64,000 nt of DNA from Naganishia liquefaciens (taxonomy: Eukaryota; Basidiomycota; Tremellomycetes; Filobasidiales; Filobasidiaceae), in NCBI GenBank assembly GCA_013423385.1, contig BLZA01000002.1:62001-126000 (forward strand), written 5' to 3'. Positions 15,305-50,508 of the stretch are shown piece after piece (position 1 is the stretch's first letter; each line of letters opens with the position of its first letter). The notes beneath the pieces were generated by a model, which worked only from the letters and a program-made list of their open reading frames with translations, was not told where the DNA came from and searched no databases. The translations under genes and the position numbers were made by a program.

Positions 15305-18300
15305 ATGACAGCTTCATCCAACGACTCGTACCCAGGCACGCCGGGCCTGTCATCACTCGCCACCTCGGTCGCATCCCTCGACTCGCCCGCGCCCTCGACA
15401 AACTCGCGACAGTCCAAATCCTCCCTGACCGCCTCTTCCTACCGTTTCGGCACGCTATGCGTCACCTCGGACCACAAGGACCAATTCGGCGCCAGTAGCG
15501 TGCCGATTTACCAGACGGCAACGTTCAAGGGTCTTCCGGGCAATCAATACGACTACACGCGCAGCGGGAACCCGACGAGAACGGCACTCGAGACGCAGCT
15601 CGCGCGGCTGTATGAATGTCGTCGTGCGTTTGCCGTATCGACGGGAATGACGGCGCTCGATATGATTCTTCGACTCGTTTCACCGGGAGACGTCGTGATT
15701 GCCGGTGACGATATCTACGGCGGGACGGATCGTTTGCTTACGTTTACCAAGACCAATGGCGGCGCGGATGTGCGCCACATCGATATGACGAGTCAGAGCG
15801 AGCTTGATGCCGTCTTGAACGAGTGCAAAGAAAAAGTCAAGATGGTCTTGATCGAGAGTCCGACGAATCCGCTGTTGAAGGTGCTGGATATCAAGAGGAT
15901 TGCGGATTCCGTGCATGCGGCGTCGGCAGTGAGTATACTCTTTTGCGCAATCTCCTCCGTATCTGACCTGTTGTAGGACGCCTTGATCGTCGTGGACAAC
16001 ACCATGATGTCGCCTTACCTGCAACGCCCACTCAATCTCGGCGCAGACATCATTTACGATTCGGGAACCAAGTATCTCAGTGGTCATCACGACGTCATGG
16101 CCGGTATCATTGCCGTCGAGCGGGAAGACGTGGTCAAGGTGAGTCTTTCCCTCTCGACGCACATCCACGCAACCTCGGTTGACCCCTCTGCAGCGCATCG
16201 CCTTCCTTATCAACTCGACGGGAACAGGTCTCGCGCCATTCGACTGCCATGTCCTCCTCCGCGGGCTGAAAACCCTATCAATCCGAATGGATCGCCAAGC
16301 ATCTACGGCCTCCATGGTCGCTTCCTACCTCGACACACTCGGCTTCCACGTCAATTTCCCGGGCCTGAAATCACATCCGGGGCGGGACATTCACTTTCGT
16401 CAGGCCGATGGCGCCGGTGCCGTGCTGAGTTTTACGACGGGCGATGTCGTCACGAGTGAGCGGATTGTCGGCGGGACGCGGCTGTGGGGCGTCTCGGTCA
16501 GTTTCGGATGCGTCAATAGTCTGATCTCGATGCCATGTGTCATGTCGTGAGTAAACCTCGGCGTCCCGCACGCGCGCGCGTCTTCCCGATTCCACCAAAG
16601 GCTGACACTCTGGTAGACACGCCTCAATTGCCGCCGACAAACGAGCCGAACGCGGCCTGCCCGAAGACCTGATCCGTCTCTGCGTCGGCATCGAGGATCC
16701 GCGCGACCTGATTGACGATCTCGAACGCTCGCTCGTCCAGGCTGGCGCCATCTACGAACGTTTTGACGAATCCGCATCGATCCCGAGCACACCGACGTCG
16801 TCCTCTGCGGCACCCGAGAGTGCGCGCGTATCGGCGATTGTGAATCATGCGTTCATGACCGATCCTATGGCTGCGGAATCGTGGGCCGTCCGTCGTGCCA
16901 AGCGGTTCCGAAGGGGTGGGCCCGTCGAGGCGGACAAGGGCGTCGGTGCCGAGGATGAAACCCTTGCCACGACGACGACAACGACGACGACCGATTCTCA
17001 GGATATCTTGGTTTCTGCTCCGGGCAAGGTCATCATGTTTGGCGAACATGCAGTTGTACACGGCGTCGTACGTTGAGTCTTCCGCCTTCTTGTTCTCGAG
17101 GCTTCCTATCGGTTGTATATGTGCTAAAATTCGAATGTATCCATACTGCAGACGGCCATTGCCGCTTCCATAAACTTGCGCTGCTTCGCCATCCTGAGTA
17201 AACGTCCCGATCACAAGATCCGACTGGATTTACCGGATCTGCATCTGTACGAAAAGGAATGGTCCCTCGACACTCTGCCGTGGGATGCATTTACAGCCAA
17301 GCCGCTGCAAGGCGGCAGTGCACCCAGGGAGCTCGACGTGGAATCGCTCAAGGCCGTCGAGGGCTTTTTGCACGACGATGGGCTCGATGCGACGGCGCAT
17401 GTGGCCGCGCTGGCGATCTTGTACTTGTACATGGCCATGTCGAATCATGGAGATCGGTGAGTCGACCGGAGCGGGACCGAGTCAAGGGTCTCATTTGTCC
17501 GCTCAGACGCGGCGCCACCTACTGCGCACGATCCGCACTGCCTATCGGGGCCGGACTCGGATCATCGGCCTCTTACGCGGCATGCATCTCTGCCGCCTTT
17601 TTACAACTCTTTGGCTTGCTCAACGTGGCAGCCGGAGCGATCGATGACGCCCAGGCGACGCTCATCAACGACTGGGCGTTTTTAGCGGAAAAGGTCATCC
17701 ATGGGAATCCGAGCGGGATCGACAATGCCGTCGCGGTCCGCGGCGGAGGCTTGACGTTTGAGCGCGCGATCCACGGCAAGGCCGGCGGCATGAAGAGTCT
17801 GGCCGGGTAAGTTTTTGCGGAATGAGCCGCGAGGGATGACGCTAACCCGCGCAGATTCAAATCCGTGCGCCTTCTCCTCACCGACACACGCGTGCCGCGG
17901 CAGACCAAGCTCTTGGTTGCTGGTGTTGGCGAACGCATGACGGCCGATCCGGCATGGGGCGAGCGCATGATGGATGGAATTCAGGAAATCTCGGATCGGG
18001 CCCAGGGCTTGCTCACGGATACGACCAAGGGACGAGCCGAATTTGTTGCGGGTCTTTCGGTGAGCATGAGGCGGCGAGTAAAGCATCGACGAGCTTTGCG
18101 GCTGACTTCGCGCGCAGAGCCTTTTGGATCGCAATCACGAATATCTGGCCGAGCTCGGCGTGTCGCATCCTGCGCTCGAGCTCATTCGCGCAAAGACGGC
18201 GTCGGCGCCGTACCACTTGTCGACCAAGTTGACCGGCGCCGGCGGCGGCGGATGTGCCGTGACTCTTATTCCGGACGGTAAGCGCGCCCTCCCGCCCTCC

Positions 18301-18580
18301 CCTCACTCAACTCGCAGCGCTGATCCCGGGGGCTGCAGACTTTTCCGCCGAGCGAATGGACGCGCTGCTTTCCGAGCTGCGCGAGAGCGGCTTCCGGCCG
18401 TACCTGACGAGCGTTGGGGGTGCCGGACTGGGCATGCTCACCGATGCTCACGCGCTCGACGTCGATGCGCCCGGTGCAGGTGAGACGAATCACGTTCCGC
18501 TACTCAAGGCGTTCCACGATGTCGACGCCGAGCAACTCGGGGCATGGGCCGAGAGCGCGGGCGGGTGGTTGTATATCTAG
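15305..18580 (+). CDS. STR3-ERG12: cystathionine beta-lyase fused in frame to mevalonate kinase
   Basis: Nine exons (15305-15928, 15977-16138, 16194-16546, 16617-17067, 17152-17456, 17507-17806, 17855-18059, 18118-18277, 18339-18580) give 933 residues; an alternative last acceptor at 18318 gives 940. Residues about 45-425 are a PLP-dependent cystathionine beta-lyase (methionine synthesis, cystathionine to homocysteine): [23 protein letters not shown], and the PLP lysine in [16 protein letters not shown] at about K240, ending [16 protein letters not shown]. An 84-residue low-complexity linker (about 426-509) follows. Residues about 510-933 are a complete GHMP-family mevalonate kinase (ATP-dependent phosphorylation of mevalonate, sterol and isoprenoid pathway): [30 protein letters not shown] at about 643-655, and KLTGAGGGG at about 837-845. 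Exon 4 carries the lyase C-terminus, linker and kinase N-terminus with no stop. Methionines at about 460 and 464 could allow separate kinase translation. Convergent with NOP56, 81 bp apart. Confidence 0.85.
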
Positions 18581-18661: not shown

Positions 18662-21175
18662 CTAGGCCTCGGACTTGCGCTTCTTCTTCTTGTCCTTTTT
18701 AGACGGTGTCTCTCCGTCCTTGGCCGACTTGTCCTTGGACGACTTGTCCTTTTTCGACCGCTTGGATGTCGATTCAACGTTGACGGGCTGTAAGTCTCCC
18801 GGGGCGTCGACCTCCATGGCTGAAGCGTCGAGCGCGGCCACGTCGGATTTCCTGTACCAAAACGACGACGGGTCAGCGAGTCTGTTCCCGCGACCTCTTG
18901 ACGAGAAATCCACCAGCCTCACCTCTTCTTGCTCTTGTCCTTTTTGCTCTTTTTAGGCGTCGTCACCTCGGCGGCCACACCGGGAATCAAACTCTTGAGC
19001 TTTTCCAAATCGGGATCGACGGCCTGTCCCGTCTCCTTGGCCTCGCGCTGACCTTGCTCGACGAGCTTGACGGCCTCGGCGACATCATCCATCTTGGCAT
19101 CATCACCTTCCTCATCGGCATCCTCATCATCGTCGTCCATCGACGCGGCAATCGCCGCCTGTGCCTTGGCGATCGCGTCAGAGTTCTTGCTGACGGCGGC
19201 GCCCGTCTCGTAGAACGCGAGTCGCTCCTCGACCTGGGCACGCAGGGCCTCGCCGTACTTGTTGGTCGGCACGTCGCTGAAACAGTCAATCCTGCACGCG
19301 ATCGAGCACTTGTTGGCGAGGAAACGCGAGATTCGGCCCTTGTGCTTGTTTCCGGCGCGGCCGATAAACGTGCTGTGGTAGATCAAGCCGTACTTTGGCG
19401 TGTTGCCCTTTGTCTTGAGCGCACGGAACAGGGCCTTTTCGGCGCCGAGGATTTGCAGGGTCGAGGCCGGGTACTTTGCCAGGTTGGTCAAGCTTCCGGC
19501 ATGGCTGATCAGTCGGGCGCCGATCGTTTCGCCGACGAGGGCGGCCAGGTTGGGCGCGACGGCGTTCATCTTGTCGACGAGGTATTGACGAAGCGACGTT
19601 CGGTATCCGGCGAGCTGGACGACACGCTCGGCGAAACGCTTAATGTTGATCAAGTCGATTTCGTTGATGTCGCTGCCCATGGACGACTTGGCGGCATCCA
19701 TGACGTTCTTGGCCATGGTCTCGTCGTCGTCGAGAATCTCCTGGATGGCGGCGACCATGCTGGTGTACTTTTCGTCCGACGTGTCAAACGTCAGGCCCGA
19801 CTTGTCGCCGATGAGCAGGACGAGGCGCGCGTACTGGCCCGGGTTGGAGGGTACGATCTTGACGAGCTCGGGGAAATGCCACGAGTACCATTCACGGATA
19901 CGCATGGCAAACGTGTTGACGTCCTTGTCGAGCTGGTCGGCGAGCGCGATGGCCTGGATGATCATGTTGTCGGATCGGTTGACGTTGAACTGTGGGGCGG
20001 GGCGGCGGCGAAGCGTCAGCGCGGCCGTCATGGCAGGAACCCCTCGCCGTACTCACCTTGACCTTGCCTCGCGAGTACGAATGACCCAGACCCAACTGCG
20101 CCATCTTGACATCCCCGCTCGTCATCCCCGTCCCGGCCTTTGCCAGCAGCTTTTCCGCGTGCAGTCGAATCCCGCGCACAAACTCGAGCGTGCGCTCGCC
20201 CGTGTCGCAGTTGATGCCGAGCTGCTGCGCGATCGAGGACGCGAGCGTACGTTCGCCGACACCGAGCAGGATCCGCTGGGATTTGGTGGCCGAGGGCAGG
20301 AGCAGCTGAAGAAGGGCAGAGAGCTGGTCCGAGATGATGCCTGAGGGGGTTAGGGGAAGGCGTTAGCGCGCGTGATGGAAAGACGGCAAGAACAAGGGGT
20401 CTTGTGTTGATGGAAGCGGCGATCCGCGTTATCCAGCGCACAGCCAAGGGGGATGCGCCGAAAGAGGAGAAAACTCGGGCCCCGCCCTATTAATCACACT
20501 CGGGGAATCCCTCGCTTCGGCGTCTCCTGTCCTTGCTCCGCTCGAGGAAGGAAGGAAATTCTCGGCCGTCCGAGGTGTCGAGGTGACCTCGGGGATTTCC
20601 TCGTCAGCGGCGCCTCCTGTCCTCGTTGACGATCGACGAAAGGAGGCTTCTCGCTTCGCTATAGGTGTCACTGCCTGCGGCGCCTCCTTTTTTTCGCTCG
20701 CCCTCTGGCGCGCTCGGGATGGCTTGCCTGCGGCACCGGTATTCTCGCTCCCTTCGGTCGCTCGACGAGACAGGGATTCTCGCTTCGCTCGAGGGAAATC
20801 TCGCTCCCTCCGGTCGCTCGGATCGCTTCGCTCCTCTTTGCCTGCGGCGCCTCATATCCTCGCTCCGCTCGTCGCGCGACTCACCTTCAGAAACATCATT
20901 CGCATTCTGCAGCGCCTCTCCCGCACTCGTAAACGGCAGAAAACTCTTCAACTTGACCATTTTCCCAAACTTGCTCATATCCTGAATCGCCTCTTGCACG
21001 GCTTTGCTCTTGGCCGCCTAGAATCCCCCCCCCCCCCGCCCGCGGACATTAGTTTCTGGCATTTCCGTCGCTCCCTGCTGCTGCTGCTGCTCACAATCTC
21101 CTCCTGCATCGTCACCTCGAACAGGGCATAGCCCGAGGCGTTCTCAAAGAGAACATGGGTCAGGTTTCCAGACAT
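18662..21175 (-). CDS. NOP56: box C/D snoRNP core protein Nop56
   Basis: Five exons (21175-21095, 21017-20885, 20340-20057, 19989-18923, 18851-18662) give 584 residues. Nop56 is a core protein of box C/D snoRNPs that guide rRNA 2'-O-methylation, in the nucleolus. N-terminal domain: [15 protein letters not shown] and [20 protein letters not shown]. The central part has [35 protein letters not shown], and the NOP-domain stretch [20 protein letters not shown] with [12 protein letters not shown]. These separate it from its paralogue Nop58. The C-terminus is the expected Lys/Ser/Asp-rich tail ([23 protein letters not shown]). Intron 2 is 544 bp, about ten times the local norm, and is described separately. 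Divergent from the RNase Z gene, with 255 bp between ATGs. Confidence 0.93.
20341..20884 (-). repeat. 544-bp NOP56 intron filled with short GC-rich inverted repeats
   Basis: From about 20440 to 20884 the intron repeats a few units: several TCGCTTCGCT / TCGCTCCGCTCG units, two copies of CTCGCTCC-C-TC-GGTCGCTCG, and at least four copies of a GCCTGCGGCGCC-like unit. Many are self-complementary or near-palindromic, so the transcript could form hairpins. Introns of Nop56 genes often host snoRNAs in animals; I could not find a convincing C-box/D-box pair here. The frame after the donor stays open to 20604, so unspliced transcript would extend the protein by about 90 residues. Confidence 0.6.
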
Positions 21176-49770: not shown

Positions 49771-50428
49771 TCTTGAAGCTTGTCCAGCGAGATTGAAGAG
49801 TTATTGAAGTCGATGTTGAGTAAGAATCCCGGATCTTGCGTTTCAGCCCTAAATGGCGCGTGGTGGGCGACGATCACTTCCTCGAATACGGGTCGTTTCG
49901 AGAAGCGCTTTGTAAGATCTGAATCGGTTCGCTTGCCAAATCCAGTCGCTGATCGTCCTTGTTTCAATTGATTCCTGTAATGATAGCTTTATCTCGTCGG
50001 CGATATCGGGCCGATTCAGTGCTGTATTGAAAAAATTGCTGTCGCGTTCAATCTTTGTTGATGGCTCCCTTTGTAATGGAGACTTATAGAGACGTCCCTT
50101 CCTGCTCACAGGCACGATCAAGCGAGTGAAATATCTCAACGTTAAAGCAGGCGGACCGTTTCCCCCTTACAAGCGATGCCATCCGAAAGTTCGAAATCAC
50201 CACCCACTTGTGTGCAGCAAATCGAAATAAACCTCCACTCCAACAGCCATACCGATTGCTTGCATTCGAAAATACAGCGAGAGGCTTGTTCTATCACTAG
50301 GGGACCTCGGCACATCGCACTGCGCGGAAGAAGAAGGCTTCGGGCGGCGACTCTCGCCGTTCCGCATATCGCCGGAACCCTAAAACATAAAAAATCATCT
50401 CATTTTACGAAAACAACGCACATCGCTT
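49771..50428. other. intergenic, nothing recognised
   Basis: DIC1 promoter side and upstream flank of the tRNA. A minus-strand open frame of 97 codons (49849-50139) has no recognisable motif. Confidence 0.4.
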
Positions 50429-50500
50429 GGGTCCATAGTTTAGTGGTTAGAATAGCTGCCTTCCAAGCAGCTGGCAGGGGTTCGATTCTCCTTGGACTCA
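50429..50500 (+). tRNA. tRNA-Gly, anticodon TCC
   Basis: 72-nt cloverleaf. Acceptor stem GGGTCCA pairs with TGGACTC (one G-T), discriminator A; D-loop AGTGGTTAG; anticodon stem GCTGC/GCAGC around loop CTTCCAA with TCC at positions 34-36; T-stem AGGGG/CTCCT with loop TTCGATT. No intron. Reads GGA codons (and possibly GGG). Followed at once by eight T. Confidence 0.95.
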
Positions 50501-50508
50501 TTTTTTTT
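50501..50508 (+). terminator. RNA polymerase III terminator
   Basis: Run of eight T directly after the tRNA discriminator base. Confidence 0.9.

Follow-up and report, generated by a model that had tools for sequence, protein, structure and literature searches.

The window analysed here (64,000 nucleotides of contig BLZA01000002.1 from Naganishia liquefaciens) carries on its forward strand a gene at 15305-18580 whose product begins with cystathionine beta-lyase (CBL) and ends with mevalonate kinase (MVK), the two being joined by a variable linker. CBL is a PLP-dependent enzyme that splits cystathionine and so yields homocysteine, and MVK phosphorylates mevalonate. This gene is almost certainly the basidiomycete metC-MVK (STR3 joined to ERG12), and it is very probably expressed as one spliced mRNA and one bifunctional protein of about 940 residues. 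The first-pass annotation was not aware of a description of the fusion, and the suggestion of novelty must be withdrawn, since metC-MVK (PMC3342255) and the corresponding STR3 orthologues (PMC3468542) were both reported in 2012. The window adds a further species and a long linker, but nothing new in kind.

Gene model and enzyme identity

The splice model comprises nine exons (Table 1), which add up to 2823 bases in one frame with a single terminal stop and encode 940 residues. All eight introns follow the GT-AG rule. When the alternative start of exon 9 is used, the frame is kept and the protein is seven residues shorter. The length of 933 residues given in the first-pass annotation corresponds to this variant, while the main model yields 940. 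Its central observation, that a single stop-free exon runs from the end of CBL through the linker to the first kinase motif, was borne out by the splice model; the junction stands, and only the linker length changes (83 residues in our count instead of 84). Similarly, the splice model, the domains and the motifs agree with a single gene that encodes two apparently complete enzymes in a single frame. That this frame is translated into one bifunctional polypeptide, as had also been proposed, is very probable from the sequence.

Table 1. Exons of the fusion gene and the intron that follows the first kinase motif
Feature	Position	Strand	Basis or remark
Exon 1: ATG start and N-terminal half of CBL	15305-15928	+	splice model; PF01053 from residue 50
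Exon 2: CBL with presumed PLP lysine K240 in SGTKYLSGH	15977-16138	+	splice model; alignment
Exon 3: CBL	16194-16546	+	splice model; frames of P0250 and P0260 end here too
Exon 4, junction: CBL C-terminus, linker (about 427-510) and 16-residue kinase motif	16617-17067	+	
Intron 4, directly after the first kinase motif	17068-17151	+	in-frame stop 17074-17076 if retained
Exon 5: MVK	17152-17456	+	splice model
Exon 6: MVK with a 14-residue motif and HGNPSGIDN	17507-17806	+	splice model, alignment; PF00288 at 630-711
Exon 7: MVK	17855-18059	+	splice model
Exon 8: MVK with a 13-residue motif	18118-18277	+	splice model, alignment
Exon 9: MVK C-terminus and stop	18318-18580, or from 18339	+	splice model

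The N-terminal half matched the Pfam family PF01053 (residues 50-419, 411.5 bits) and exceeded the cut-off of the NCBIfam model for eukaryotic CBL (TIGR01329; 528.6 vs 487.5 bits). In frame with it, the C-terminal half was recognised as MVK by PF00288 (33.6 bits vs a cut-off of 22.3) and by the invariant columns of the kinase motifs, and the kinase C-terminal domain PF08544 scored 20.9 bits, slightly under its cut-off of 21. When the whole protein was scanned against NCBIfam, lyase models occupied the list and no MVK model was found among the top 25 families. In the relative P0001, residues 508-904 match two structures of mevalonate kinase, 1kvk and 2r3v. We take K240 to be the PLP lysine, and the roles of the kinase motifs are likewise assumed by analogy with characterised CBL and MVK enzymes.

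We then looked at the copy number of both enzymes in the 19.4-Mb assembly, searching exon by exon and considering the best candidates only. The two best matches to the MVK model TIGR00549 (99.4 and 42.6 bits) lie within the fusion gene, and other loci scored 28.8, 19.9 and 18.3 bits. No piece reached the cut-off of 163.05, the single exons of the fusion gene included, since introns split the match. Three other GHMP loci were best matched by the NCBIfam models for homoserine kinase (203.8 bits) and diphosphomevalonate decarboxylase (264.5 bits), both above cut-off, and for phosphomevalonate kinase (101.8 bits on a 119-residue piece, below the cut-off of 376.95). For TIGR01329, pieces of the fusion gene scored 259.9 and 164.4 bits and the next candidate, on contig C16, 78.8 bits; none reaches the cut-off. 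Four pieces on contigs C14 and C16 favour models of cystathionine gamma-synthase or gamma-lyase, but these are fragments that all stay below the cut-offs. Thus, neither a second MVK (exon-by-exon profile search, best candidates) nor a second good CBL match (TIGR01329 search, which had further hits on C6 and C11, and NCBIfam scan of the four pieces on C14 and C16) was found in the assembly, and within this scope the fusion gene carries the sole MVK and the sole best CBL match of the genome. The idea of an extra copy beside normal single genes is therefore unsupported, and the methionine and sterol pathways of this organism probably rely on the fusion gene alone, as published for other basidiomycetes.

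Downstream of the fusion gene and tail to tail with it lies a gene for a Nop56/Nop58-type snoRNP protein (18919-20052, reverse strand; PF01798, 287.7 bits). Its tail perhaps extends to 18662, if a lysine-rich frame (18662-18952), for which no Pfam family match was obtained, is its last exon. In this case only about 80 bases would separate the two stop codons. The sole tRNA that ARAGORN detected in the window is a tRNA-Gly (anticodon tcc) at 50428-50501 on the forward strand.

Fused relatives and the two halves searched separately

A search with the whole protein (E ≤ 0.001, 8000 scored candidates) found 575 relatives, of which the best 120 were listed. The candidates measured 0.55-1.75 times the query length, so that the search is suited to fusions and blind to basidiomycetes in which the two genes are separate. 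The 120 listed relatives (878-994 residues) all have the CBL-MVK layout, which answers the call of the first-pass annotation for one protein with both domains in other basidiomycetes. In 118 of them the best local alignment spans 95-100% of the query; for P0064 and P0094 (886 and 916 residues) it spans 43-44%, and both contain lyase and kinase domains. According to precomputed domains PF01053 is present in every listed relative, and PF00288 or PF08544 in 119; P0006 (913 residues, 99% coverage) has PF01053 alone. A Pfam scan of eight fused relatives gave PF01053 followed by PF00288 in each case.

An organism was named for 107 of the 120 relatives and, judged by genus name, all 107 are basidiomycetes. 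The genera include Naganishia, Kwoniella, Cryptococcus, Tremella, Calocera, Dacryopinax, many mushrooms and polypores, Sporobolomyces, Rhodotorula, Microbotryum, Violaceomyces, Exobasidium, Ceraceosorus and Bartheletia. By their genus names, the fused relatives thus come from Tremellomycetes, Dacrymycetes, Agaricomycetes, Pucciniomycotina and Ustilaginomycotina as well as from Bartheletia. The closest listed proteins belong to Naganishia vaughanmartiniae (QFC22_005207, P0001; 949 residues, 81% identity) and Naganishia friedmannii (QFC21_005753, P0002; 962 residues, 80% identity). Both cover 100% of the query and are labelled hypothetical protein. One jgi entry, P0082, bears the name cystathionine beta-lyase/mevalonate kinase. 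In P0003, P0004, P0049, P0062 and P0082 the whole frame (900-944 residues) lies on a contig of only 2883-3170 bases, a size that would be compatible with spliced mRNA.

When the window's protein was aligned with the 120 relatives (121 rows), K240 was invariant. The same holds true for PGK (515-517), GEHAVV (522-527), AGLGSSA (647-653) and the fixed positions of HGxPSGxDN, and one ten-residue motif is identical over its entire length in 121 of 121 sequences. A514 is kept in 118, and the pattern of the unbroken HGV-TAIA stretch matches 111 of the 120 fused relatives.

Each half was also searched alone, and the best 120 of 3008 matches (kinase half) and the best 120 of 7977 (lyase half) were listed. 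Among the matches listed, the kinase half found single-domain kinases of fungi outside the basidiomycetes, Mucoromycota among them (about 38-46% identity), and the lyase half single-domain lyases, mostly from ascomycetes (about 56-62%). The halves match Str3 and Erg12 of other fungi, which are encoded there by two separate genes and here by one. BLAST of the proteins P0121-P0359 indicated that 30 of 239 match both halves (detail for 71).

Among the matches listed, named candidates for stand-alone basidiomycete enzymes were not sustained. All eight named basidiomycete lyase matches (P0243, P0246, P0247, P0248, P0251, P0252, P0254, P0283) continue into kinase sequence and thus look like truncated or partial fusion models, and the five named basidiomycete kinases (P0122, P0125, P0136, P0139, P0214) hold lyase sequence. 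A possible exception is P0145 (476 residues), which consists of the kinase half alone with a linker-like N-terminus and may be a fragment or a genuinely separate kinase gene.

Taken together, the fusion is a widespread basidiomycete trait, common to many mushrooms, smuts and relatives. For its absence outside Basidiomycota we rely mainly on passages of PMC3342255 and PMC3468542. The fusion probably arose once, in an ancestor of all basidiomycete subphyla, when two complete genes became joined end to end; the available part of PMC3342255 also places the origin of metC-MVK in the basidiomycete ancestor.

The linker and the intron behind the first kinase motif

Does the fused gene give rise to two working proteins, either by cleavage of the linker or by a kinase start at an internal methionine? 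The linker is indeed variable. Mean agreement with the query is 0.02-0.22 per ten-residue block at residues 431-510 of the 121-row alignment, and the length ranges from 31 to 102 residues. The window's linker is among the longer ones and contains two methionines, and a KR or RR pair occurs in 54 of the 121 linkers. However, 88 of the 121 linkers lack methionine (33, including the window's, have at least one), so that the linker offers no conserved start site for the kinase. The ribosome-skipping word NPGP is absent from all 121 linkers, and the low block agreement reveals no conserved cleavage site at residues 431-510. We therefore consider two separate products very unlikely.

We rate as equally improbable a switch in which retention of intron 4 yields a CBL-only protein beside the full one. 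The retained intron would bring in the stop codon listed in Table 1 and leave the lyase half with the linker (532 residues). Nine proteins from the half-search listings end at most 80 residues past the first kinase motif, and two continue normally. Seven of the nine (P0241, P0243, P0244, P0245, P0249, P0254, P0255) read HGVV and then unrelated residues, which means that they run into the intron at the position of the window's intron 4; for P0245 (3251 bases) and P0255 (2534 bases) the source is a short jgi contig, which may be RNA. The same picture would arise, however, from genomic sequence read without splicing or from an intron that was missed, and an early stop in a retained fungal intron is common by chance. 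Among public entries, P0243, P0244, P0245, P0254 and P0255 read into the intron and resemble truncated fusion models, and P0243, P0245 and P0255 are labelled cystathionine beta-lyase by a source. The reading frames of P0250 and P0260 stop at the position of the exon 3 end, as CLMS and CVMS.

An artefact, either neighbouring genes misjoined in the assembly or gene model or a stop codon lost by sequencing error, can be ruled out for all practical purposes, since the layout is common to at least 120 relatives from many independent genomes, introns beside the junction sit at the same places in relatives, and expressed fusion sequences are in print (passages of PMC3720577 and PMC3846667).

The position of intron 4 is common to several relatives. 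Four kinase pieces start in the far end of this intron, and one of them (P0239) comes from Jimgerdemannia, a non-basidiomycete. Since P0239, a single case, enters at the same place, the intron may predate the fusion and, judged from these sequences, may be an old MVK intron.

Possible function and comparison with published fusions

The reading that we prefer remains one spliced mRNA and, translated from it, a single protein of some 940 residues. The N-terminal PLP half would convert cystathionine to homocysteine and the C-terminal half would phosphorylate mevalonate, so that two independent active sites would be joined by a variable tether. Both halves are predicted to be active within one polypeptide. 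The simplest view is joint expression of two single-copy enzymes at a fixed ratio. The CBL and MVK reactions share no metabolite, which makes channelling unlikely; if there is any gain, joint regulation is the likelier one. A link of methionine and sterol supply via S-adenosylmethionine may fit, and our literature search found no experiment on a connection with sterol C-24 methylation. Knock-out or down-regulation of the fusion gene should hit both pathways together.

A regulatory tie through SREBP is conceivable but rather doubtful. According to the accessible text of PMC9810662, SREBP targets a "mevalonate kinase" gene of Ganoderma lingzhi (g3941), which goes up when SREBP is overexpressed; neither "cystathionine" nor "fused" occurs as a word in this paper. 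Since Ganoderma lucidum has only the fused MVK (passages of PMC3342255), g3941 is presumably the fused gene, and the lyase would then come under sterol control. With both enzymes of basidiomycetes under a single promoter and in a single chain, SREBP would reach CBL and would also set homocysteine and methionine supply, with methyl donors following sterol demand.

Several reports bear on the fusion, and the following statements refer to the parts of these papers that were available. Liu et al. (PMC3342255) named it metC-MVK and found it in 12 basidiomycetes, Laccaria bicolor lacking it; they describe metC-MVK as the sole MVK homologue and the sole best CBL match of the genome, the fused protein as the only MVK of Ganoderma lucidum, and a 16-residue insertion in the MVK part. 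In PMC3468542, STR3 orthologues with a C-terminal mevalonate kinase were present in all examined basidiomycetes save Postia placenta; stand-alone MVK was not found in basidiomycetes, and ascomycetes have two separate genes. The fusion was seen as a mycelium unigene, and thus as an expressed sequence, in PMC3720577, as a transcript in PMC3846667, and as the only MVK of another genome in PMC4129116, where a role in terpenoid synthesis was inferred. Passages of PMC4393869 contain an ordinary ERG12 entry and leave the fusion unmentioned, as do those of PMC11753615. The authors of PMC3342255, PMC3468542, PMC3720577 and PMC3846667 call its function or relevance open, and our literature search, with most subscription papers outside it, found neither enzyme assays nor genetic work on the fused protein.

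The window's gene resembles metC-MVK as given in the passages of PMC3342255 in its N-terminal CBL, its C-terminal MVK, its basidiomycete host, its sole MVK and its sole best CBL match. It has the same architecture as the basidiomycete STR3 orthologues in the corresponding part of PMC3468542, which likewise occur without a stand-alone MVK. Its protein is longer (940 or 933 residues) than the metC-MVK average of about 886 stated in the former paper, and its linker measures 83 residues compared with a median of 43 in the 121 sequences.
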